Shown piece after piece: positions 16,420 to 61,701 of a stretch of DNA of 64,000 nt. The notes beneath the pieces are model-generated. The model saw nothing but the letters and a program-made list of their open reading frames with translations, was not told the origin of the DNA and made no database searches. The DNA is from Siphlonurus alternatus. Taxonomy: Eukaryota > Arthropoda > Insecta > Ephemeroptera > Siphlonuridae. Location of the stretch: positions 26,192,118 through 26,256,117 of the forward strand of contig OX463780.1 of the NCBI GenBank assembly GCA_949825025.1, given 5' to 3'. The translations under genes and the position numbers were made by a program. Within the stretch, counting starts at the first letter, position 1, and every line of letters begins with the position of its first letter.

Positions 16420-17213
16420 CGTCGTGTTTGGTCGTGTTTGGGCGTCACTTGGATGCCAAGTGTCGGGCGTGTTTCCGATTCCCCGAGACCACCATGCATC
16501 TGCTCTCTGCCTGTTCATTCTACGCCAGGACTCTGTACATTGAGCGGCATAATTCTGCATTGAGAGTGCTTTATTTCCACCTAAGGCACCATTTTGGTAT
16601 TGACGAAACGCCTGTCATATACCATTCGCTCCGGGGGACGTAGAGGCAGTGGTAGAGAACGACCAGGTGAAGATCTTCTGGAATTACTCGTTCCCTACCA
16701 CTCGCCAGCTCCATGCTACCAAGCCAGACATTGTTCTGCTTGAGAAGCGCAAGAAGGTCATGACAGTGATTGAATTTTCTGCTCCTGCGGAGCACAACAT
16801 CACTGACAAGTACACAGAAAAGCGCGACAAGTATCAAGACCTTGTCATGGACTTGCGACAAAGCTACCGGGGACATTCGGTGTCACTTGTTGTCCTGTTG
16901 GTTGGCGTGATGGGTGGGGTGCCTGACACACTACTCTCTGGGCTTCGGCAAGTACCAGGTTGCCGTGGATCCGCTGAGCGGCTGGCGGATGCCATGCAGA
17001 AGGCAGTGTTGCTGGGCTCTCTTCGTCTCCTTCGTGCGCATGGGGAGGTTGGGTGAGGTGCACCCATAAAAATAGAAAAGGCAGCCCTGGAGTTTACTGC
17101 ACGAGAGTGCGGAGCGCCGGGGTCGAGTTTCTCTAGCTGTTGAAGTTGTTAGATGAGGAATACTCTGTTTTACATGGAGCCTGTACTTTCAACTTTGGCA
17201 TGCTGAGGGAAAG

Positions 17214-17282: not shown

Positions 17283-17890
17283 TATTTGATTAATGGCTGT
17301 ACAATACAACATAAATCACGTCATCCCTAAAACAATACAACATTAGCAATGCAAACAAAAAGTTCTTTAAAATAAATGATATACAAAATTACAATATTTT
17401 AAGAGTCACATATTACAATATATATCCATATATTATGTCATCACTATACTGAAACATCATAATATCAAGTTTACAATTATTTACTCTACAAGACAATTTT
17501 CAGGTAGCTTATTAGCAAAAAACATTTTCACTGAATAAAATTCCCTTTTTATCAGGATAGATTTCAGTTTTGCTTTAAACAATTTATGACTATCAATGTT
17601 TCTAACACATGCTGGTAAAAAGTCATAAATTTTAGCTGACTGATATAAAGGACTTTTCTCCAATAAAGCTGATTTGTGATTAGCTACTACAGTTTTTGTT
17701 CTGTTTCTTGTTTCATATGAATGGTGGTTATGATCGTATAATTCAGGATGCTGTTTTCTAAATAGTGCACTGTTTAAAATATACAATGAAGGCAACGTTA
17801 GCATATTGTGTTTTTTAAAATGCGATACACATGAATCTCTCTTCCTAAATCTCAGCATCGTTCTTAATGCTCGTTTCTGTGCAATAAAAT
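17280..17890 (-). pseudogene. 5'-truncated Jockey/CR1-type LINE: C-terminus of ORF2 and 3' UTR
   Basis: The minus-strand frame ending at 17481 encodes QKRALRTMLRF, then SCVSHFKKHNMLTLPSLYIL, YETRNRTKT, YQSAKIYDFLPACV and LKSILIKREFYS. This matches the last about 130 residues of the ORF2 at 27139-30042 position by position at about half identity, so it is a related but distinct subfamily. Homology begins near 17890; the rest of the open frame upstream is AT-rich flank. The 3' UTR reads tgtacagccattaatcaaat on the minus strand before the tail. Confidence 0.88.
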
Positions 17891-21500: not shown

Positions 21501-21770
21501 TGTGGAATATTTGGAGTTTATAATAGTAACATCAAATAATTGTTATCACTTAATTATGGTGAGTGATTGCAAGAATCTTGATATATGGTTATAACGTTAA
21601 TTATATATCAGTATTAAAGTCGTAACTAAATGAAAAGATACAATAATAAAGATATTAATAACAACAATAATAATTATAAATACATTAAGTCGTTTAATTT
21701 TTTTTTGTTTACTTTGGGAAAAAAATATAAAAATCTACTTTCAGAATTTAGTTATAATTTGATTATATTA

Positions 21771-22320
21771 ATGGGGAATTCTCCTACATTTATTTTATTT
21801 TTTTTTCAGATGCTCTATGCCTTGAAATTAAATGTCCCAAAACAAAAAAGTTTCAATTTTCAAAATTGGAGACAAGGGAATTTTTTAAAAATCTTCCTTC
21901 TTTTGAATTTAGCGCCAAAACGTGACGTAGAAACTGCCTAGCAGGCGAAATTTTCCTGCAATAAATTTATATTTTCGATTATCACTCTTAAAGTAAACTG
22001 ATATTAGAGACAAAACTATTGATACTAGGGTAGAAAAACCCGCTAATTTCGATCGTGTTACTAAAATTTATATAGCCAATCACTCCTTGACGCTCAAACT
22101 ATGATATCAGGCAGTTGTTGTGTGTTAACTAGGGAGTTTCTACGTCACAATTTTCAGTTTTGCGCGCGGGTTGCATACTTTGCCCCTATTCTAATAATCC
22201 CTTCAGAGTCCCCAAATTTGAGTTAAAAAAGTTGAAACTTAAGTCAAACTTATTGTTAATATGTACCGTATCATAATATAGTAGTTAAATTAAAATGTGA
22301 GTTGTAAGAGAATTCCCCAT
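21771..22320. mobile_element. TA-flanked MITE, copy 1
   Basis: Begins ATGGGGAATTCTC and ends GAGAATTCCCCAT, with TA on both sides (21769-21770, 21321-type TA at 22321-22322). Inside, acgtgacgtagaaactgcc pairs with the later gggagtttctacgtcac, so it is partly self-complementary. Copy 2 at 34205-34759 is nearly identical. Noncoding; an open frame shared by both copies is incidental. Confidence 0.88.
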
Positions 22321-23821
22321 TATATAACTATATTGTTAATATCACCATATTATATAGTATAGAGATAGTATAAGATAGTATATATGTTTTTTTTTTAAAT
22401 AATAAATTTATTTATTTCACATGGTATTGATGTATATTATATATATTTTAAACTTTAAACTTCTGTATAATACAACTTATTTAAAAGAAATTTCAATTAT
22501 AAAATAAAATAGCTTTTAAATTTATTATTACATCTCATAAGATTATAAATTATTATAATAATTCATAGTTACATCAGTCTGTAGGCTACACCTGAGTTTA
22601 AGCCGTTGTGATTTCCGTATAGGTCAAAAATATGTCACATCAGTTGGATTCATTTGTCTAATAATAATCCATATAATTATTATACTATACACATTATAGT
22701 ATACAGTATATTATACACCCTATACTGTATATTATATAATATATGTGCAATGTACTGCATGCTCACTCCCCCTTCTAATTGTGGGCGCAATGATGCGAAC
22801 AGCATGCAGGGACTACATCACCACTTTAATGACAATCTGCAGTGTCTCCAACATAATGTCACACTGTCGCCGCTCATGTCTGTAATATAATCCCATGCTG
22901 CCAAAATATTAAATTTATTCTTCTTATATGTTGTATAGATAAAAGCACTTTAAATATATTAGGTTTTAAACATATCTGATTTCAACTAGATACATGAATT
23001 ACTTATGTATGAATTACAAGTGCATGTGTTACATCATGATTACATATACAGCTATATAAGTATATATATTATACACTTTTTTTAAATATTTGTATTTGAT
23101 TTACTTGTATGCAGTTTACCATGTAATTTAAAGTTATATGAATTGCTAACAAGTTATAAAATAACGTATATATAATGACAATGTAAGTAATATATTATTT
23201 GTCTCAATAAATAGATAATTTTCAAAATTATCGCCATCATTTTCCCCACATATTGTATATTGATGAAAGTGTCACTGCATGTATTATGCACCTTTCTCAC
23301 TGCACTCAATTGTGATTATGCAGTTCATGATATTGACATAAATATTGTATTTTTTTCTTATCTGATTCTTAGCTCTGAATGGACTGCAATAACTAGTCAC
23401 TCTCTCGCCGTATCAACCATCTTAATCCGACATTGCAGATCGTTTGATCGCTGTGACAGTTTGGCGCCTGACAATTAACGTTATAGATGTTATCACTTGC
23501 TGGATTACAGTCCGCAATCTCTCCCTGGCCGGATTAACACACTTTGTGACGAGATCTATATAATATATAACATGCAGCTGCCGGTTTTTCTTGCACAGAT
23601 GTACAGCGATAATTTATATCGTTGGATCAATAAATTAGGTAATCATATTGAGGAGAAAACAATTAAAGATATTATAATGTAAAAAAGTATCATATTTATA
23701 AATATGTTTGTTTTACATTATACGTTTCTGCATCGTGTGGTAAAGAGACAAAATAATATACTTTTTTAAAATTTTCTTGCGTGAAAACTGGATTTATTTA
23801 AGCTTATTGGATACCAAATAC
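22321..23821. other. AT-rich intergenic DNA with two balanced islands
   Basis: No gene recognised. Islands at about 22755-22890 (aattgtgggcgcaatgatgc, actttaatgacaatctgcag) and 23265-23560 (actcaattgtgattatgcag, gatcgtttgatcgctgtgac) are non-repeated and could be regulatory. Confidence 0.45.
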
Positions 23822-24266: not shown

Positions 24267-24704
24267 CCTACCGTACATTGTACAAATTATTTAGATTTTA
24301 CTGGATTTACAGCTTTCATAAATCATGGGTAAGGAAAATCTTTGTTTTGAGGTGTACCTACATTTTGTCGTGATGCGACAACTATAAATAGCAGTTAATT
24401 GCTAATAAAGTTGTTGTTCATAGTATACTCACAGTCTTTAATTTCAGCTATCCTTATATATCGCCTATATATATATATATATATATAGGCGGTAGGTGGC
24501 AGCACCTGAGAGCTTAACTACAATATTTTCACTGCTCCGTAATTTTTAAAGATTAACCTTTTTGTCTATCATTTAATTAAAAAGAAAGTCTGTTCATCGG
24601 AAAGTTGAAGTTTTTTTCTATTAAGTGATACATTACTACTAAGTGTCCTGTGCATTGAACTTTAAATATAAAGGTGTGATAAATATTCTCTTGAGAACAA
24701 CATC

Positions 24705-27041
24705 ATGACGGACCTACGCTCCATGCGTGCTACACCTCAGTTCTGCTCTCCGCTCGTACCACACTGGCCGCCACCTGCTAGAACTACACCGGAGGTTTTT
24801 AACTCACAATTTATTAATTATGATAAAAATAATTCTGATATACATATGTCCAATGAAAGCCTATCAAATGATCTGACTGTACATCCAATGTACAAATTAA
24901 TTCAACATAATATTAAGGACTTATTTACTGACTTTAGAGAAGAAATTAAATGCACTATTAAATTAATGTTAAATGAAAGAAATGGAATTTCTTCTGCAAA
25001 TAACTTTAATAATGAGGGAAATTCAAATCATCAATGTCATATACAAACAGCTGATTATGACAGGTCACCAGTTCAATTCTCGCGACCTTGGAGGACGGCT
25101 GGTTACACAAAACAACGCCCACCTCAGCCGACGTCGTTCACTAGAGTGCCACAGCAGCAGCAGCAATCACGCCAGCAGCAGCAGCAACAATCTGAGCAAT
25201 CACGCCAGCAGCAGACACGCCGGCAGCACGTTGTAAGTCAGTATCAACCTCGTCGCCCGCTCCAACACCAACCAAGTGCTCAGCGACCGCACCCTACCCA
25301 GCTGCCGCGCCAAAGCCAGGGTGCCCAATTGCGCCCCCCAAGACCTCCTTATAATCCGTGGGGTGCGACAGTACCAACATCAAACTCATTTTCAGTACTA
25401 CAACATATTAATAATGAGTCTTTTCCGACTTTACATCAGAAAAATACCAACAACAATAATATAAAAAGAAAACATCAAAATTTCCGTTTCATTGAAAAGA
25501 AAGGAAATTTGTTTGACGCACCACCAGGCACATCCTACGCCCACTGCGTTGATAAAACATTTAAACAAGGACGTGGAGTTGCAACTCAATTTAAAAAAAA
25601 ACATGGACAAACCCCTTTTTTAAAGAGTCAACTCAAAAATACTGGTGAAGTAGCTGTTTTACCTTCAGATGACAGTTTTATTTTCTACTTAGTTACTAAA
25701 TCTGTCCATAACAGCTATCCTGACCACTCAAATATACTACTTGCATTAAAAAATTTAAGAAATATCTGTGAGATTTTAAGTATAAAAAAACTCGCAATTC
25801 CTCGTTTAGCATGTGGCAGAGACGGTTTCAACTGGTCTACTATAAAACAAGACATTATTTCAGTGTTCAAAGATCTTGACATTGAAATTGTTGCTTATTA
25901 TGGATGGAAGACATTAGCAAAGAAAGTTGCAAGTAATGATGATGAAACAGCTGTTAAAGAACTCTTTGAGGAATCAGCCCAATCTACTCTAGCAAACGTC
26001 ATTACCGCTAGGGCCCCTCCTTCTAATAACCTGGCGGTCCTTGTAAGTTCCGGGCAATGCCAGACCTCTACCTTGCGAGAGAGTACCCGCCCCTCAATTG
26101 TCACGCCTGACATAGTGAGGGTGGAGGGACTGCCAGTGCCAGCCACGAAGGAGCAGATGTCTAATACCCGGGGCGAGAAGTCAGGCCTCGCTCAGGTGAA
26201 CGACGGTACCACCCCGGGCGAGGAGTCAGGCCTCGCTTCGGTGAACGACGGTACCACCCCGGGCGAGGAGTCAGGCCTCGCTTCGGTGAACGACGGTACC
26301 ACCCCGGGCGAGGAGTCAGGCCTCGCTTCGGTGAACGACGGTACCACCCCGGGCGAGGAGTCAGGCCTCGCTTCGGTGAACGACGGTACCACCCCGGGCG
26401 AGGAGTCAGGCCTTGCTCCGGTGAACGACGGTACCACCCCGGGCGAGGAGTCAGGCCTCGCTTCGGTGAACGACGGTACCACCCCGGGCGAGGAGTCAGG
26501 CCTCGTTTCGGTGAACGACGGTACCACCCCGGGCGAGGAGTCAGGCCTCGCTCCGGCGAACGACGGTATTGCCCCAAGTGAGGAGTCAAGTCTTGTTTTG
26601 GTAAACAATAGTTTGCCTGAATCAGGACCACCCTTACCAGATCCTGTATGTTCTCTTGAGTTGAATCAAGATATTATAGATATGAACTCATTACATCCAA
26701 GACTCAAAGCTTTTTTACTAACGATTTTAGATAATAAATTCCAATTCACAAATGATCTATTAAAAAATGATGAAACTGCTGCTAAGAAAAGTGCAATTAA
26801 TTCAGAAAAATCAATTAATGAAATTTCATCTGTTGTCTCACCATCCATTATTAGTAAAAATGATACTATTAATGATAATGTTTTGAGTTCAAATGTTGAT
26901 AATTTTAATCTGGCATCTCAATTGAAATCCCCCATTAAAAATTCTCAGGAAGATACACAATCTTCCCCTGTGAGATCACGGCTCCGTGCCAGTACACTAA
27001 ACAGTATCTCCACCAAATTGCCCAACAAAAAAAAAACTTAA
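24705..27041 (+). CDS. Retrotransposon ORF1 protein with TARG1/OARD1-like macro domain and 15-residue repeats
   Basis: 778 residues. In LINEs, ORF1 binds the element RNA and forms the RNP; here no zinc knuckle is seen. Residues 1-120: low-similarity, with a helical part near 58-92. 130-225: Gln/Pro/Arg-rich, probably disordered and RNA-binding. About 262-404: macro domain of the TARG1 (OARD1, terminal ADP-ribose glycohydrolase) type, with KGNLFDAPPGTSYAHCV, GRGVATQFKKKHG, GEVAVLP, FYLVTK and LAIPRLACGRDGFNW. Human TARG1 needs K84 and D125; the matching K332 and D373 are present. 487-636: ten 15-residue repeats (core TTPGEESGLASVNDG). 637-778: polar tail with a short helix (LHPRLKAFLLTILDNK). 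The first ATG has A at -3. Predicted cytoplasmic/RNP; removal of ADP-ribose is an inference from the residues. Confidence 0.88.
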   Translation: MTDLRSMRATPQFCSPLVPHWPPPARTTPEVFNSQFINYDKNNSDIHMSNESLSNDLTVHPMYKLIQHNIKDLFTDFREEIKCTIKLMLNERNGISSANNFNNEGNSNHQCHIQTADYDRSPVQFSRPWRTAGYTKQRPPQPTSFTRVPQQQQQSRQQQQQQSEQSRQQQTRRQHVVSQYQPRRPLQHQPSAQRPHPTQLPRQSQGAQLRPPRPPYNPWGATVPTSNSFSVLQHINNESFPTLHQKNTNNNNIKRKHQNFRFIEKKGNLFDAPPGTSYAHCVDKTFKQGRGVATQFKKKHGQTPFLKSQLKNTGEVAVLPSDDSFIFYLVTKSVHNSYPDHSNILLALKNLRNICEILSIKKLAIPRLACGRDGFNWSTIKQDIISVFKDLDIEIVAYYGWKTLAKKVASNDDETAVKELFEESAQSTLANVITARAPPSNNLAVLVSSGQCQTSTLRESTRPSIVTPDIVRVEGLPVPATKEQMSNTRGEKSGLAQVNDGTTPGEESGLASVNDGTTPGEESGLASVNDGTTPGEESGLASVNDGTTPGEESGLASVNDGTTPGEESGLAPVNDGTTPGEESGLASVNDGTTPGEESGLVSVNDGTTPGEESGLAPANDGIAPSEESSLVLVNNSLPESGPPLPDPVCSLELNQDIIDMNSLHPRLKAFLLTILDNKFQFTNDLLKNDETAAKKSAINSEKSINEISSVVSPSIISKNDTINDNVLSSNVDNFNLASQLKSPIKNSQEDTQSSPVRSRLRASTLNSISTKLPNKKKT
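25488..25916 (+). other. Macro domain within ORF1
   Basis: Corresponds to ORF1 residues 262-404. The match to the TARG1 class runs the whole length of that small protein: ADP-ribose loop GNLFDAPPGTSYAHC, second loop GRGVATQFKKK, central GEVAVL strand, Lys (codon 25698-25700) after YLVT, and Asp (codon 25821-25823) in ACGRDGFNW. Lengths between motifs agree with TARG1 with no large insert. No stops or frameshifts. Confidence 0.9.
26163..26612 (+). repeat. 45-bp minisatellite, ten units, in frame in ORF1
   Basis: Ten 45-bp units. Units 2-9 are nearly identical; the first and last have diverged. Much more GC-rich than the rest of the element. Each unit holds gcgagg-agtcagg-cctcgc, which can form a 6-bp hairpin, plus GGTACC and CCCGGG. 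Long minus-strand open frames here arise only because the unit lacks stops in several frames. Confidence 0.97.
27027..27036 (+). promoter_or_regulatory. A10 run at the ORF1/ORF2 frame change
   Basis: Ten A lie immediately before the ORF1 stop (TAA 27039-27041). ORF2 lies in the +1 frame relative to ORF1 and is open across the run, so slippage here would fuse the two proteins. The only ATG touching the stop (27041) is in the third frame and ends after about 20 codons. It could equally be an indel in the run. Confidence 0.5.
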
Positions 27042-27138
27042 TGTTCAGGTTCACTCAGCCCCATGTAATATTAAAATTCTTCAGCTTAACTTACCAGGCC
27101 TAAAAAATAAATTACCAAAATTTGAGTATTTTCTTGAA

Positions 27139-30042
27139 ATGGTTGATTGTGATATAATTATATTATGTGAACATGGGCTGAATGAATCTGAAATTATAAC
27201 AATAAATTTTAAAAATTTTATGATAGTTTCATATTACTGTAGAGATATTCAAAAATGTGGGGGAGTAGTAATTCTATCTCGTAAAGGTTCAAATATAAAT
27301 GATATTAAAATAAAATCCATTGAATCAGTTTTTGAATGCTGCATAGCGAAATTAGTAATTAACAAGACAACAAACATTTATTTTGCTTCTATATATCGCC
27401 CACCTAATATATCTAGAGTGATGAAAAAAATTCAGAATTTTGACAACACAGAAAATAATATAAAACCATTCTTCAGAGAGTTTGAAATGTTATGCAAAAA
27501 ATTAATTAAATACTGTAAAAATAATGATGATTTTTTTATTATTGCGGGTGACGTAAATCTTAATTTATTTATTGATGATGCAAATGTAATTTTATATAAA
27601 GATATACTGGACTCATACAAGTTGGAAATTGTTAATAGTTCCGCTACTAGAGAAACAATGAAAACGGCTACTTTAATTGATCATATTATTAAAAGTACAT
27701 CTGCTATTAATACTAATTATAAAACTGAAAAAACAACTTTGTCGGACCATAACTATACTATAGTCACAATAACATTAAATAACTCAAAAAACATTGATAA
27801 AATACAAGAAAAACAATTTTATTATAAACGAATATTTGACAAATGCAATTTAGATAATTTTCTGCTCCTATTAATTCGTGAAGAATGGAATGATTTATTA
27901 AATCCTGATCTCAATTCAAATGAGAGATGGTCAAAATTTCTTGAAATTTTTATTTATCATTTCAACGAGGCTTTTCCTGTTGTTAAAAGAAAAATTTCAA
28001 GTAACAAAAATAAACCTTCCTGGATACTCAATAACCCCCATCTTTACGAACAAGGGATTTCTTTAAAACGCTTACACTATGATGTAAAATTTACTGACCC
28101 AAATTTAGAGTCTACTTATAAAAAAGAAATGAAATCTTATAAACAAAATATGGCCACCGCTAAATTTAAAGAGAATGACCATGAAATAAAAGGAGCTAAT
28201 AATAAAATTAAAGCTACGTGGAATATAATTAATAAAGAATGCAAAACAAAGAAAACAAATGTTAATAATAAGAATAATTATGAATTATGTATAAATAGTG
28301 TAACGATTACAGACCCCAAACTAATTTGCAATTTATTTAATAATTTTTTTGTCAAGACAATTGAAAATATAATAACAGAAAAATTTCCTTTTAATTATTC
28401 TAATACTTTAATTATTGTCGATTCTGATAAAAGTAAAACGAAATTAAATTTTAGTTCGATAGACCCGATTTATATTTTAAATCGAATGAAATCCCTTCCT
28501 AATAAGTATGCAGCTGGCCCAGACGAAATACCATATACTGTTGTAAAATATTGTGCTTCTGTTTTGTCTGTCCCTTTATCTAATTTAATTAACCATTCAA
28601 TATCAGATGGTATATTTCCTGATTGTTTAAAGGATTCTAAGATTTATGCAACTCATAAAAAAGGCCCAACTTTCATTATTGGTAATTACAGACCAATATC
28701 AAATACATCTGTTTTTGGCAAATTATTTGAGAATACATTAGACGATCAAATTACGGATTATCAAACAGAAAATCATTTAATTGCTCCCTGTCAACATGGA
28801 TTCTTGAAAGACCGTTCTACTGATACAGCACTATTTGATCTTTTAAGCCACGTTTATATGGCAATAGATAATAAACTATTTTGCGTTGCAATATTTTTTG
28901 ATTTATCTAAAGCGTTTGATAGTCTAAATAAAGATGTATTATTGAATAAATTTGATAACATGGGAATAGGAGTTTCGAGTCGTAATCTATTAGATTCATA
29001 TCTAACAAACAGACAACAATATGTTGAATTAAATTCAAATTCTAACGGCCAAAATATTACATATAAATCAGACAAATTACCGATTACACTTGGAATTCCT
29101 CAAGGAGGAAAAATGTCAGCCACATTGTTTAATACAGGAACAAATGACTTATCAGATCATGTCAAGAATGCGGTATTAGTAAAGTATGCTGATGATATTA
29201 CAGCTATAATCACAGCAGAAGCCGAAGATGAATTAATTCGTAAGATTAAACTTACTATTGAAGAGGTACATACATGGTGTACAAATAATAAGCTAATATT
29301 AAATTCAACTAAAACCGAATACATCCAATTTCATTCCCCTAGACAAATCCCTTTGAATAGTTATTTGTTGCAATTAGCCGGAAAAACAATTAAAAGAGCA
29401 GAGTCTGTTAAGTTTCTTGGTCTACACATTAATGAAAGTTTGGATTGGTCTTTACATGTAAATGCGATTTGTAAGAAGATAATTTCGGCCAATTTTATGT
29501 TATATACAATCAGGAATCATGTATCTCATGAAACCTTGCTAACCTTATATTATGCGTATGTTTATCCACATTTGGCATATGGCATAATAAATTGGGGATG
29601 TAAATCGGAACTATTGAATCGATGTTTTGTTTTGCAAAAGAGAGCACTTAGAACGATTTTAAGAATACCAAAAGGACAGTCGTGTGTTTCACATTTTAAG
29701 GCTAATAAAATGTTAACTGTCCCTTGCATTTATATTTTAAATTGTGCCTCATTCAAAAAAAATCATCCAAATTTTTATGTTCAGAATGATGGCTATCATG
29801 ACTATAATACTAGGAATAAATCGAATGTAGTTACTGAAAGACATAACACACAATTTTTCAAAAACTGTGCAATGTATCAAACAGCAAAATTTTATGAATT
29901 TTTACCAGCATGTTTGAAAGAAATAAAAACCAGTAAACTTTTTCGCACAAAATTAAAGAATGTATTGATCAATAAAGAGTTTTACTCTATTAAAGCTTTT
30001 GAGAGTAATAAAATGTCTGAAAAAGTATTATCAGGATTATAA
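27139..30042 (+). CDS. Retrotransposon ORF2: AP endonuclease and reverse transcriptase
   Basis: 967 residues from the first ATG, but the frame is open from before 27001, and its residues encoded by 27073-27138 (ILQLNLPGLKNK..) are the expected first strand of the endonuclease with its catalytic Asn. The true product therefore starts upstream. Endonuclease: E11, YRPP 86-89, GDVN 137-140, LIDHI 179-183, SDH 202-204. Reverse transcriptase: GPDEIP 460-465, [16 protein letters not shown] 516-531, [10 protein letters not shown] 587-596, [13 protein letters not shown] 652-664, YADD 683-686. The C-terminal part has [15 protein letters not shown] and YNTRNKS, typical of Jockey/CR1-like elements. No RNase H seen. 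It makes the nick and copies element RNA into the site. Confidence 0.95.
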
Positions 30043-30083
30043 AATAAACAAAATTATAAATTTACATATACATTGTATTGACT

Positions 30084-30217
30084 GATATATATATATATGT
30101 ATATATATATGTATGTGTGTATGTATGTGTATATGTATGTATGTATATATATATGTATATGTATATGTGTGTATATATATATATGTATATGTATGTATGT
30201 GTGTATATGTATGTATG

Positions 30218-30300
<83 letters not shown>
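30084..30300. repeat. TATG/TGTA/TA compound microsatellite in the LINE 3' UTR
   Basis: Runs of tatatg, tgtatg and tgtgtg over about 215 bases, 40 bases after the ORF2 stop. Several Tyr/Ile/Val- or Thr/His-rich open frames on both strands are repeat translations. Confidence 0.97.
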
Positions 30301-30521
30301 GTTCCACATAAACTAAAATTTATCAGTATTAATGGTGACTTTGGCTTGTATTTTGTTTTTATTATTATTGTCAGTGATTGTGTTTGATAGTGTTAAATAA
30401 CTTATGTAAATGTGTTTAAGTTTGATGTTTTTATGTTGTATTTTGTCCAATTTTGACTTGAACATATGTTTGTCTTGTACAACCAAAAAGAAGTTCCAAA
30501 ATAAAAATAAATAAATAAATA

Positions 30522-30530
<9 letters not shown>

Positions 30531-30569
<39 letters not shown>
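30531..30569. repeat. (TA)n, right flank of the retrotransposon
   Basis: About 19 TA units directly after the A-rich tail; a matching (TA)n at 24466-24487 precedes the element. Confidence 0.95.
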
Positions 30570-30573
<4 letters not shown>

Positions 30574-33816: not shown

Positions 33817-34204
33817 ACCCTTTTTTTAAGTGTTTATTTTGACTGTATAGGCTGCATAGGAAAGTACGTATCAAATGTCGTAAAAATATACTTAGAAAGT
33901 GTATTCTTATGAATTAAAAAAATTAAGAATCTTATTTTCATGAAAATGTAATACTTCATCTGGTCCATCATATTTATATTTTCATTGGAATAATGCAACT
34001 TTTGTATATTGCATGTTATTAAAGATAGTGCAGAATGTCATATGTTTATTATATTATAAATTTTTCAGAGATGTTAGATAATTTTATTTAATAAAACATT
34101 TAAAATAAAATGATGAGAAATGAGAATATTATATTCTATTGATGTTATATAATATGGTGAATGTGTATATATTTTGTGGAAGATGAATGAAATGAATGAA
34201 TATA

Positions 34205-34759
34205 ATGGGGAATTCTCCTACATTTATTTTAATTTTTTTTCAGATGCTCTATGCCTTGAAACTAAATGTCCCAAAACAAAAAAGTTTCAATTTTCAAAAT
34301 TGGAGACATGGGATTTTTTTAAAAATCTTCCTTCTTTTGAATTTAGCGCCAAAACGTGACGTAGAAACTGCGAAACTGCCTAGCAGTGGAAATTTTCTTG
34401 CAATAAATTTATATTTTCTATTATCACTCTTAAAGTAAACTGATATTAGGGACAAAACTATTGATACTAGGGTAGAAAAACCCGCTGATTTCTATCGTAT
34501 TACTAAAATTTATAGCCAATCATTCCTTGATGCTCAAACTATGATATCAGGCAGTTGCTGTGTGTTAACTAGGGAGTTTCTACGTCACAGTTTTCAGGTT
34601 TGCGCGCGGGTTGCATACTTTGCCCCTATTCTAATAATCCCTTCAGAGTCCCCAAATTTGAGTTAAAAAAGTTGAAACTTAAGTCATACTTATTGTTAAT
34701 ATGTACCCTATATAATATAGTAGTTAAATTAAAATTTGAGTTGTAAGAGAATTCCCCAT
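34205..34759. mobile_element. TA-flanked MITE, copy 2
   Basis: 555 bp, the same element as 21771-22320: ATGGGGAATTCTC..GAGAATTCCCCAT with TA on both sides. Differences are few and scattered (for example a short cgaaactg duplication near 34370). Confidence 0.9.
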
Positions 34760-34764
34760 TATAT

Positions 34765-37700
34765 ATATATATAGTATTTCATATTGCACATTTTATATTT
34801 CAGATCTTTAATTTATTTTTTACGAAATATAACATCTTACATTATAATGGACATTATAATATATATAATACAGAAATATGGGATTTTATATTGCAATGAA
34901 GAAAAATGTTGACTTGAAAATTCAATGACGTATATAAAATAAGACGAATTAAAACTTATATTAAATAATCCATTTAAGTGGTTTTCAAAAAAAGGGGGCA
35001 ATCTATTTGTCGTCAATAGAAAATCCATTTGCAGTACAAAACTTTGACTGAGAAACGAAGTAAAAGCTTTCAACAATTTTCAACAGAATGAACGGGAAAT
35101 GTCCGAATGATTTTATTTGCCTGCTCTCTACACACAAAGGAGTTTGCTCTGAAATCCTCTCCTCCAAATAGTCGCCGCATTTGCAATGCAAAAATTATTC
35201 TCAGGACTATTTCCGACCTAAAACTTTTCCATTCCTTGTGAAAAGAAAGAAAGAATTTAAAAACGGGGAAAAAATTTTGACTCTTAAAAATCTGAAAGCT
35301 AAATATATATAATAAAACCCTAACCATTCCCCATGCAAAAGTTTAAAAAAAGGGTGTGTGTTAACATTTATATTACTACGTTTATCAATTAAGTCACACA
35401 ATGCAACTTATAATGTTTTATAAATCGTTTGAAATTACGATTTTTAAATATAAAAAGTTCTTTGAAAATGATGCCATTTTTATTAATGTTTATTTGTGGA
35501 ACAAATAAATGTAAAAAATATTAAATTAAACATGTAAACTTGATTTAATATTATATAAGAAATTTATTGGGAGTTTTAAAGGAGCTTATATTATATCATT
35601 TAATTTTAATGCACAGTAATTGGTCTTACCATGCATAGCAGATCAAAAGGCAGAAACTTAGCAATGAAGGTCACTTTCAATGTCTATATAAATATTATTA
35701 TATAGATAAGAAAAATATAAGCTCTTATCAGAAAGTAAATTACTGCCTGGTTTTGCATCTGCAATGCATATGTAGTGGTAACAATTAATTAATATATAAT
35801 TATGTGGAAATATCATCAAATATTTTTGCCTTTATATTATATGTAATAATAATAATAATAATAATAATATATACTCATGCATGCATAGAACTTAAAAAGC
35901 TCTCGGTATAGATTTTCGGTAGATTTTTGTTTTACATATATAAACCGCATGGCTGGTTTGTGAGCCTGCAAAATTGAAATGTAGGCAACTCTTCGTGCAA
36001 ATAGGTCAGGGTGTTGCAGTATACGTAGAAGCAAGTGAGGTAATTCTTGGCCAAATTTTTTATGAACTCTGTATAAACCATAATTGTTTTCATAATATAT
36101 TTAAAAGTTCTAGATATAATCAATAATATAACAAACCATTATTTTTTCTGAAGTAAATTTATAAACATAATAATGTTATTGTAATATATAGTGTAGATTG
36201 CATGGCATTCTATTTGGTAAAATAACAAAGATTTTATAGATAGGAAAAATTATTAAATTATAGTATGCCGTTATATGAAATACAAAAAAATGCAATTAAT
36301 TCTAAACTTAATAATGGTCGATGATAAAACTCATTTTAAAATTTCTAAACACGAGTAATTTACCGTGTTTTGTTGAAGCTAATATTTTGATATTCTCTAG
36401 CGACGCACAACATATAATTTTCTATATCTCTGTCATTTAAGTCTTCCATTATATATAATTTTTATCTTAAACATGATTTTATAGTTCTTACAATCAACAA
36501 AAATTGCTGGGAAATGTATATAGACAATTGAGGGCTATTATTTCTATCAAGCACGCATTTAATGCCGCAACAATAGTCGTTGTCTTATATAGTATATTCT
36601 ACGAGAGAGTTAACAATGATAATAATAATAACAAAGCTTGAGGTCCGCCGCGCCAGCTAGCAGAGAGGGACATCGAGCAGAAATGATTGTTGTGGTATCC
36701 GCCCATCACCTCTCTATATACACGGCATTGTTGTATATAGCCTCCTATTTATTAAAGTTTTGGAGTCGCTTATTTATTTATTATTGTGGTTGAATTGCAT
36801 GGCATCACGGCGCAGTCGTGGGCCCTATGTGTGTCATTACAGCAAGTTGCTGGCCGTGGCAATATCATGCCAAACGGTCTGTGGCTGCGACTATGTAATT
36901 TAACTTATTGTCTTTGCTGGAGGAGAAAATAAAATGAAATGTTTAATGATAAAATGACTTTTGATTGCTGTGATTGTGTGTTTATATTTCTATATACGTG
37001 CACAATAGTATAAATATACGTGTAGGACTTTAAATAAAAAAATTAAATGACGATTTTATTTGTCTGCTCTCATGTAAAAGTCCACATTTAATTTTACTTT
37101 CTACTGCACATTGTAAAATATAATTCCTTTTAAATATATACTTATACTGTAGTTAAATTTATGCATTTAATTCTATTCTAATATATTATTTATATTTTTT
37201 CACACTTCACATAATATTCTGCAATGTATTAATTGGTGAACATCGTCCGATATATAGTTCAGGCTATAAAAGTATATTAAAATTTGTACATTATAATTTT
37301 CATTTATTTGATTTGTAATTTTGTGGTGAAACATAATATATTGGTAAATTTATATATATTTTTATATATATTTTATATATATGTATATTTTAATAACAAT
37401 GCATTAAAATTTATAACACAATATATTTTATGCACAGGTTTGCATTAAAAAAAAAACGTGAAGGTTGCAGCTATTTAATTATATATTATGATATGACATA
37501 CAAGTTTTCATATTTTTCATGAAGCATTTACGATCGATCATCAATACAATAATTCATGAAAGGTCAAACGTTGGGATTTTTATTGCAATAAAGAATGTAT
37601 GGGGTTCTAGGGTTGAGTAAAGTTTAAATAAACGACTAAAAAACTCAGCAAAGCTTTGAGGGTAAAATTCCCTCTGAATGGCTCCACTCTCCCTCTTAAA

Positions 37701-58780: not shown

Positions 58781-61701
58781 TAGTCCAGGATAGACTTGAA
58801 ATTAGGTCGGCAAAATTAGTTGCTAACTTAAACTTCGCCCATATGTTCTTATGACCTATATGAACCCACAGTAAAAAGTCCCGTCAAGTCCCCCCTGGCC
58901 TTCATGGTCAAACCCGGGTTTGTCCCGGATTTCAAAAAACATTTTTTATCTCAACAACTACTTATCGCAGACCAATGCAAAAGGTATCAAAGCAAAGCTT
59001 ATTAACTACACAACAAGGAAAAAAATACCTCAACATTACTAATTGATTTTATTATGCAAATAATTAGCAATTAGTGAGTTTATATCCACCATTCATGATT
59101 TTGAAAGTAAACTACGCCGAAAATATGCAAGATATCAATTTTGAGTTTATTACAAATAATTAGGTTTATTTAATAATGAACTCAGAGCTTTTTATTTTAT
59201 AGCTCTAGCACTCATAGATCGTGAGATAGTAGGGAGAGAAGTGTGAAAAACAGGGGCGGGCGGGCATCATTACTATGGGTATAGCAGGTATACCGCCGCC
59301 TCTCTCCATACAAAATACATTGCAGCGGCGCCGCTCGCTCGAGTCTCACTCATCCCCTGCACTCTCTTTTTCGACAATACTATCTTAAATTTATCAAAAT
59401 CATAACAATTATATAGATATGGGGTGTGAGATGACATTGCTTTGATATTTTTTGCAATATAATATGTTATATATACAATATATATATATAGTGTAAGTAA
59501 GCAAATACTTAGCAATGTAATTTATATAATAGCACACACTCAGAAATGTATTTATGATAGTCGAGTTCTAAGGTTAATAATAATATTTTTATTTACATAG
59601 AAGTAATGCAAGAAACAATTTGGGAAATTAACATACTTATTTGAAAATGATCATAATATTGAAATAATCCAAAAGGTGGTATAATGAAAAGATCCATAAA
59701 TATATAAGAAGTAAAGATACTGACTGCTGTTATAGTTGACTATTATTTTTAACTGCTCTCGTGTCATTACATCTGGCTAATATACCGGGTACTAAAATAT
59801 TACAACTATAATATATAAAATATAATTTACAATACTTTTTCCAGTATATATTTGTTCCATGAATATTAAAAGTGATAAAAGGATTATTGTCACTAGTCTT
59901 GGGAGATGGTGAATCACTTTGAAAATTATAGTACCTTAAATATATTTCCTTATATTATGACATAAATTTTCAGCAAAAAGAAATGAAGCCAAAATCTGTC
60001 TAGTTTTTAAGATATACAGGATACAAGGATACAAATATTAATAGTGAGAATATCATTGGAAATATGGCAGCCATTAGTCAAATCAGCATCTTTTTTAACT
60101 AAAAAAAAATTAATATCTCAAAAACTGGACTGAATAATTACTTTTTTTTTACTTCAGAAAGTGAACAGTCATTTTGTGTTCCATGTTCTGATCTAAATTT
60201 TATATTTTTTACCATAAAAAAAATAATTACACTATAGTGACAATAATCCTTAATATCATGCAACTGACTGCTAGGATACTGTCATATTGGTATTTTCTAA
60301 TCATGTTTGTTAGAAGAACTTGTTAAACTTATTTCTGCACATGCACTTATTGATTTTTCTTTAGTCTTTTATAAGATAATTATAAAAATGTGATTGCTGC
60401 ATATAATATGACGACTGATTGACACTTAATTATTTCTAGTTGGACTATAGTTTTAATGTTTGGGCAAGAGGCAAGAATATATAAAATTCAATGCTAATTC
60501 AAAGAACTAAATACTGCTCTTATATACATGCATCATTCATTGTGTGCATGGATATACCAAATTACCACTTTATAATTTTGTGAACGACACAATTAATACA
60601 TAGAATAATTATACTTCGATCTCGATGTATTCAATAAAATGTTGTTGACAGTATTTCAGGTATTTCCTTCAAAAAGCAAGTGTTATATGTAATACCAGCA
60701 AGTTTATTGTACCATGCATTCACATAATGAATTAATATAGCCTGGAACAAATACATAATTACTGAATTATCATAAAAGAGTTAGTATAAGAGAAGACGCG
60801 ATTCGATCACTGCAAAGGATATATCATGAATAAGTAAAATAGTTAAAGTTTATGTTTATTGCGTTAAATAATATATGTATATAAATAAATATAAACAAAA
60901 AAACTACAAAGAAACTACTATCATGGTATTAAGTAAAATAGGAAATCTATCCTGAATACAAAATTAGATAAAAGAGTGATACAAGCTGCCTACTTGATCA
61001 TAATGATCAATATGGCATATACAATTTTACTTACCCCCCTCCCCCAATCCCATATCTATATAATTGTTATGATTTTGATAAATTTAAGATAGTATTGTCG
61101 AAAAAGAGAGTGCAGGGGATGAGTGAGACTCGAGCGAGCGGCGCCGCTGCAATGTATTTTGTATGGAGAGAGGCGGCGGTATACCTGCTATACCCATAGT
61201 AATGATGCCCGCCCGCCCCTGTTTTTCGCACTTCTCTCCCTACTATCTCACGATCTATGAGTGCTAGAGCTATAAAATAAAAAGCTCTGAGTTCGTTATT
61301 AAATAAACCTAATTATTTGTAATAAACTCAAAATTGATATCTTGCATATTTTCGGCGTAGTTTACTTTCAAAATCATGAATGGTGGATATAAACTCACTA
61401 ATTGCTAATTATTTGCATAATAAAATCAATTAGTAATGTTGAGGTATTTTTTCCTTGTTGTGTAGTTAATAAGCTTTGCTTTGATACCTTTTGCATTGGT
61501 CTGCGATAAGTAGTTGTTGAGATAAAAAATGTTTTTTGAAATCCGGGACAAACCCGGGTTTGACCATGAAGGCCAGGGGGGACTTGACGGGACTTTTTAC
61601 TGTGGGTTTATATAGGTCATAAGAACATATGGGCGAAGTTTAAGTTAGCAACTAATTTTGCCGACCCTCCCCATATACTTTTTCAAGTCTATCCTGGACT
61701 A
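58781..61701. mobile_element. 2.9-kb DNA element with about 650-bp terminal inverted repeats
   Basis: 58781-59423 is the near-perfect reverse complement of 61049-61701, with only single-base changes and a roughly 10-base length difference near the outer end. Ends: TAGTCCAGGATAGACTTGAA. GTA flanks both sides (58778-58780 and 61702-61704), a likely 3-bp target duplication. The arms carry GC-rich blocks (ggcggcgccgctcgctc-like, caaacccgggtttgtcccgg). The inner 1.6 kb is AT-rich with no frame above about 60 codons, so it is non-autonomous. A smaller inverted pair lies inside at about 59877-60252. Confidence 0.9.

Follow-up and report, generated by a model that had tools for sequence, protein, structure and literature searches.

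Why would a non-long-terminal-repeat (non-LTR) retrotransposon carry, in its first open reading frame (ORF1), a domain resembling an enzyme that removes ADP-ribose? The question is raised by a 64,000-nucleotide stretch of contig OX463780.1 of Siphlonurus alternatus (hereafter the window), in which a young, plus-strand copy of an APE-type long interspersed nuclear element (LINE) encodes an ORF1 protein (ORF1p) with a macro domain of the TARG1 class. We find that such a domain in ORF1 is shared by many LINE families of this genome. From the sequences, we consider it likely that the ORF1p of these families is built around a TARG1-class ADP-ribosylhydrolase that erases ADP-ribose marks, so that insertion proceeds and the element evades restriction, and that this domain was derived from TARG1, with ORF1 later exchanged between lineages.

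A TARG1-class macro domain shared by many LINE families

An earlier note on this DNA had described a LINE bearing a macro domain of the TARG1 class and both catalytic residues, and fold comparison confirms this. The domain scored highest against TARG1 (27.0), ahead of DarG (20.9), Poa1p (17.1) and alphavirus macrodomains (about 16), and is therefore nearer to the TARG1 fold than to other macro classes. The match covers the whole domain, and alignment with human TARG1 (4j5r; 141 residues) places K332 and D373 at positions 84 and 125. The Pfam profile check suggested by the same note succeeded in part: Macro (PF01661) matched the window ORF1 at a score slightly below the gathering level, which tells against the assignment, and it is the fold comparison that backs the TARG1 class. 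Both catalytic residues are present in 41 of 42 macro sequences, comprising those of the window, the protein P0001, 20 loci (L031–L050), 13 macros from L055–L066, 4 standalone frames, the proteins P0002 and P0003, and human TARG1. The sole exception, L057a, has Arg and Asn at the two sites and is the first member of a tandem macro pair in one 568-codon frame (L057, G000:C3:10610729-10611598), the second member having Lys and Asp. Across 25 aligned macro sequences 12 columns are invariant, the catalytic Lys and Asp among them.

A search of the 455.7-Mb assembly with the macro domain gave 313 candidates, of which the 150 scored all match; macro copy counts in the genome are thus lower bounds. 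By identity, 67 rows lie at 98–100%, followed by levels at 77, 72 and 71% (the last being 30 rows of one type, mostly of 772 or 782 codons) and by lower levels at 70–68, 62, 60–57, 48–47, 46, 44 and 43–41%, with a few partial copies. A stop falls inside the match in three rows, at least one row is a standalone frame (C5:3515641) and one copy is split over two rows. The queries P0002 and L061 each yielded at least 150 matches and added further macro types. At all 20 fetched loci (L031–L050) the macro is followed by ORF2, with ORF2 segments 44–70% identical; the macro frame is unbroken at 19 (L047 is cut), and 16 have ORF2 frames of at least 1000 codons. The other copies and the related LINEs combining a macro with an EEP endonuclease and a reverse transcriptase (RT), which the earlier note had proposed to look for, therefore exist. 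Its placing of the domain in a LINE ORF1 stands; its attribution to a single element does not, the domain being a property of many families.

The ORF1 region of the window has 29 other copies at 97.0–100% identity over 1645–2625 bp. Homology begins at window position 24486–24493 in 16 of them, the flanks are unrelated in the eight printed, and L002, on a different contig, is identical to the window over 2610 bp. In L006, L010, L020, L021 and L025 homology begins 440–965 bp downstream of the common 5′ end; such dispersed copies with variable 5′ truncation are typical of APE-type LINEs, as are the EEP and RT residues present in 21 of 21 ORF2s (with Tyr or Phe before ADD) and the RVT_1 match. A whole-ORF1 relative, P0001 (710 amino acids (aa); 47% identity overall, 77% in the macro), most likely comes from another genome, because its best matches in the window's genome reach only 54–58% (63 of 448 candidates scored).

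The association also appears from the ORF2 side. Among 8222 candidates, 46 ORF2 copies of the window family were scored, and a macro lies 1483–1551 bp upstream in 32 of these complete ORF2s; with a second ORF2 query, partial matches included, a macro lies 1217–1572 bp upstream in 30 of 48. For this count two macro rows were dropped (the standalone C5:3515641, and C1:39862962, half of the split copy) and eight rows from another query were added. A LINE family with a 1029-codon ORF2 was suspected of being macro-free; this was ruled out, since its ORF2s at C8:12108937, C4:35264314 and C3:45957881 have macros upstream. Some observations weigh against so general an association: 14 of the 46 complete window-family ORF2s and 18 of the 48 from the second query (several of them partial) have no listed upstream macro, and among 12 extra loci (L055–L066), represented by macro letters only, coordinates place an ORF2 at just L059 itself and at relatives of L061 that are 67% identical to it. 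ORF2s without an upstream macro are likely 5′-truncated copies; alternatively, they may belong to a macro-free ORF1 variant. An Rfam search gave no matches, and a genome-contig search with the query A2 found no conserved stretch.

Selection and the layout of the element

Among 13 ORF1s, mean pairwise identity is 0.26 before the macro, 0.60 within it and 0.19 after it. The ratio of nonsynonymous to synonymous substitution rates (dN/dS), estimated by the method of Nei and Gojobori (NG86) on 10 hand-picked pairs, was 0.05–0.21 for the macro (dS saturated in two pairs), 0.45–0.65 for the rest of ORF1, 0.08–0.35 for the EEP domain and 0.08–0.28 for the RT part (two pairs saturated in each). In seven of the eight finite pairs the macro has a lower value than any finite EEP or RT value from the same pair, so the macro is held about as tightly as the ORF2 enzymes; L033/L035 (macro 0.21, EEP 0.12, RT 0.08) and the two pairs with saturated macro dS speak against this. 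Within the window family, 29 copies show eight distinct changed codons in the macro, three of them nonsynonymous (the corresponding count for residues 1–256 was spoiled by 5′-truncated copies and discarded). The comparison of dN/dS across copies that had been suggested thus reveals purifying selection on the macro in many families. Since many families keep the domain in this way, and identical copies are dispersed, the elements appear to need it, and very likely use it.

Outside the macro, part of ORF1 is predicted to be disordered. An AlphaFold model of the full ORF1 (12-row alignment) had a mean predicted local distance difference test (pLDDT) score of 46.6, with good confidence only at helix 61–92, the macro and helices 665–708; the macro is the sole globular domain predicted to fold, and residues 61–92 may form a coiled coil. 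The linker around the macro is basic and rich in Gln and Arg. A Pfam scan of the window ORF1 (E≤1) returned only Macro and a chance NifZ match, with no CCHC, RRM, PHD or esterase domain (a remote RRM below the reach of Pfam is possible), and the domains of ORF1 Types I–IV (CCHC/RRM, Tnp22, PHD or esterase) were not found there. The minisatellite in the disordered part of ORF1 has 8 or 9 units in each of the 14 plus-strand loci that were counted; zero counts for minus-strand loci were discarded, as one strand had been scanned.

ORF2 overlaps the end of ORF1 in the +1 frame in the window and in L031–L046, and in the -1 frame in L048–L050 (in L047 ORF1 is cut). By eye, ORF2 lacks an ATG ahead of the EEP domain in the window and in 18 of the 20 loci (all but L047 and L048). 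ORF2 is presumably expressed by programmed frameshifting or from a non-AUG start. The Pfam scan of the window gave no direct endonuclease match, and full-length ORF2 relatives do carry PF03372; the invariant residues listed for the endonuclease in Table 1 are those we take to form the EEP motif. A protein search for outside ORF2 relatives gave 68 matches among 7995 scored candidates, at no more than 32% identity and with uninformative names, and a Protein Data Bank (PDB) search with ORF2 found R2 retrotransposon proteins only (best E 9e-8).

Table 1. Features of the LINE copy in the window (UTR, untranslated region)
Feature	Position	Strand	Evidence or remark
5′ UTR	24491..24704	+	Element 5′ end about 24491-24493 (GGTAGGTGGCAGCACC)
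ORF1, 778 aa	24705..27041	+	P0001 is a whole-length relative; 29 other genomic copies, 97.0-100% nucleotide identity
ORF1 N-terminal helix, residues 61-92	24885..24980	+	AlphaFold of full ORF1, block pLDDT 72-82
TARG1-class macro domain, residues 257-404	25473..25916	+	
Catalytic Lys K332 (human TARG1 K84)	25698..25700	+	Lys in 41/42 macro sequences
Catalytic Asp D373 (human TARG1 residue 125)	25821..25823	+	Asp in 41/42 macro sequences
In-frame 45-bp minisatellite, 9 copies, coding GEESGLASVNDGTTP	26166..26568	+	Inside predicted disordered part of ORF1
ORF1 C-terminal helices, residues 665-708	26697..26828	+	AlphaFold, block pLDDT 73-78 over most
ORF1/ORF2 overlap	27001..27041	+	ORF2 in +1 frame; 10-A run at 27027-27036
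ORF2 open frame, 1013 codons	27001..30042	+	1013-codon frame in 46/46 scored copies
EEP (APE-type) endonuclease, approximate limits	27070..27780	+	N, E, D, N, D, S, D, H invariant in 21/21 ORF2s
Reverse transcriptase domain with YADD	28654..29430	+	RVT_1 E 5.3e-31; A-D-D in 21/21
3′ UTR, AT-rich microsatellites and A-rich tail	30043..30570	+	3′ boundary inferred from the window copy alone

The copy is flanked on both sides by an AT microsatellite. Elsewhere in the window, the 3′ end of another LINE ORF2 (17490–17879, minus strand), 52% identical to residues 867–998 of the window ORF2, probably belongs to a 5′-truncated copy of a related family, and an ORF at 16649–17056 (plus strand) presumably resembles the C-terminal restriction-like endonuclease of R2-type elements (KPDIVLLEKRKKVMTVIEFSAPAE). 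Inverted repeats of about 620 nt, 100% complementary, surround 1.6 kb at 58805–61666; this looks like a young DNA transposon, with no ORF of at least 110 aa inside. A direct duplicate of about 570 nt, 94–98% identical in pieces, lies at 21769–22336 and 34203–34775.

Possible origin of the domain and probable exchange of ORF1

The macro domain probably derives from an animal TARG1, perhaps through a single capture. Such domains also occur on viral contigs: in IMG/VR contigs of up to 394 kb, 85 stretches encode TARG1-like macro domains, 80 of them (L067–L146) at 26–37% identity, and a viral-contig search with the single macro domain as query gave no relative. With ten of the viral TARG1-like domains as the outgroup, a branch supported at 100/100 separates these ten from a set made up of human TARG1, P0002, the standalone frames, and the LINE and LINE-like macros. 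A single clade of 28 LINE and LINE-like macros is compatible with the data by the approximately unbiased (AU) test (p = 0.185; for most of L055–L066 the LINE context is presumed), and the 15 rows that group with the window, itself included, have 99/97 support. This tree leaves out eight rows, namely the near-copies L034, L036, L037, L038, L040 and L046, together with P0003 and L057a. The same genome holds four standalone TARG1-like frames of 161–201 codons (L051–L054), of which the host-like L051 pairs with P0002 (95/80); they point to an enlargement of the host's TARG1 family or to domestication of LINE pieces. The host-gene capture put forward earlier is thus compatible with the trees, although several placements leave room for more than one capture, another donor or the opposite direction: a first macro tree joins L058 to human TARG1 (96/80), a pairing that is absent from the outgroup tree and would mean a second capture; starred branches of that first tree require two or more changes among the macro-only loci; and the standalone L052–L054 are not resolved among the LINE macros.

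The tree of the macros disagrees with that of the ORF2s. L043 joins a macro like those of L041/L042 to an ORF2 like that of the window, L048 and L049 have a common macro and different ORF2s, and L031 combines a macro of the L033 type with an ORF2 near that of L048. AU tests rejected the swapped groupings in five of six cases (p from 1e-11 to 0.002). Low ORF1 dS combined with high ORF2 dS (L033/L035 and L048/L049) indicates that ORF1s were exchanged between ORF2 lineages, as passages of PMC4120745 report for Jockey-superfamily LINEs. This interpretation is weakened by the sixth case (L049 with L050, macro data; p = 0.176), which was compatible, by the choice of test groups after the trees had been seen, and by the meeting of the long branches L049 and L050 in the ORF2 tree.

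Possible roles of the domain and comparison with known systems

What the domain would do for the element can be put more specifically, if tentatively, at somewhat less than even odds: a TARG1-type hydrolase would be the required core of ORF1p, erasing host ADP-ribosylation from the ribonucleoprotein (RNP) and from nicked target DNA or RNA ends, where ADP-ribosylation would act as a defence layer or as a barrier to target-primed reverse transcription (TPRT). In the broader proposal, which we consider likely, ORF1p would join the RNP through its N-terminal helix and its basic or disordered regions, and the macro would hydrolyse ADP-ribose esters, linked to Asp/Glu or to nucleic-acid phosphate, that host ADP-ribosyltransferases may place on the RNP, RNA ends or the nicked target site. 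Removal of the mark would let TPRT proceed and the element escape ADP-ribosylation-dependent restriction. Because a LINE both nicks its target and carries its RNP, a tethered eraser would be of use against either mark; we lean slightly towards protein or RNP marks, that is, defence evasion, over the cleaning of nicked DNA or RNA ends. Sections of a review (PMC7050489) state that TARG1 removes Asp/Glu-linked and phosphate-end ADP-ribose and that DNA-repair PARPs modify phosphates at nicks in vitro. According to parts of PMC8501950, TARG1 reverses thymidine-linked DNA ADP-ribosylation and rescues laboratory E. coli BL21 DE3 from DarT toxicity, which a K84A mutant cannot do, and an account in PMC4695847 has SIRT6 silencing L1 through ADP-ribosylating KAP1. 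Several points tell against an eraser: the hydrolase activity of the LINE macro is a prediction, conserved residues are no proof of hydrolysis, L057a has Arg and Asn at both sites, and the SIRT6 and viral-macrodomain parallels are drawn from vertebrates and viruses.

The macro might instead be a reader: by binding ADP-ribose or poly-ADP-ribose it would guide the RNP towards DNA breaks or chromatin where PARPs are active, and hydrolysis would be incidental. The ALC1-like class includes readers as well as erasers (sections of PMC7050489), a DNA nick is a PARP site, and the title of a preprint (PMC12632316) reports that binding, not hydrolysis, matters for chikungunya virus in mosquitoes. Binding alone, however, gives no reason to retain the catalytic Lys and Asp, yet these are kept in all macros but L057a while most positions vary, and we regard a reader as unlikely, at about one chance in five. 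The same conservation argues against a structural or nucleic-acid-binding core that replaces RRM or CCHC domains in RNP assembly and for which ADP-ribose chemistry is irrelevant. Such a core would fit the absence of CCHC, RRM, PHD and esterase matches from the ORF1 Pfam scan and the prediction that the macro alone folds as a globular domain; against it, in turn, the basic, Q/R-rich linker may be able to bind RNA alone, and we think this role quite improbable. A one-off insertion, a chimera or an assembly artefact beside an ordinary LINE is ruled out by the 150 of 150 scored candidates, the 20 of 20 loci with ORF2 and the relative P0001, which did not turn up in this genome.

An eraser built into ORF1p would be a further class of enzyme among the ORF1 proteins of LINEs and would bring ADP-ribosylation into direct contact with retrotransposition. 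With a conserved active site in a domain of about 150 residues, the idea is open to assay, and it suggests that ADP-ribosylation-based control of transposons outside vertebrates is worth looking for. The ORF1 classification in PMC4120745 comprises Types I–V (RRM/CCHC; L1-type coiled coil, RRM and C-terminal domain; PHD; esterase; unclassified), and the word 'macro' has no occurrence in the main texts of that paper or of PMC5563155. As the earlier note had remarked of this ORF1 layout, no described LINE with a macro domain turned up among the matches listed by full-text searches of the open-licence literature, the scope of which excludes subscription journals and Repbase reports. We take the macro-bearing ORF1 to be a new ORF1 type.

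Among known systems, the closest to the domain itself is human TARG1 (OARD1, C6orf130; ALC1-like class, 4j5r/4j5s), which shares its whole-domain fold, Lys 84, Asp 125 and the HC, YLxTK and CGxD motifs; identity is 35–37%, and TARG1 stands alone, whereas the LINE macro is embedded in ORF1p and has a predicted activity. The DarG antitoxin macrodomain differs in being bacterial and, per sections of the review (PMC7050489), in sharing only the dyad Lys with TARG1. In architecture the nearest parallels are CR1/L2 LINEs, which likewise have an accessory domain in ORF1 and exchange ORF1 between ORF2 lineages but whose domain is an esterase or PHD (PMC4120745), and Jockey LINEs of Hemiptera and Orthoptera, insect LINEs whose ORF1 acquired an enzyme domain that is an SF1 helicase of viral origin (PMC5563155). 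In lifestyle, the LINE macro resembles the macrodomains of alphavirus nsP3 and of coronaviruses, in which a genetic parasite likewise bears an ADP-ribosylhydrolase fold as a possible counter to host PARPs, and of which, if our proposal is correct, it would be the retrotransposon counterpart.
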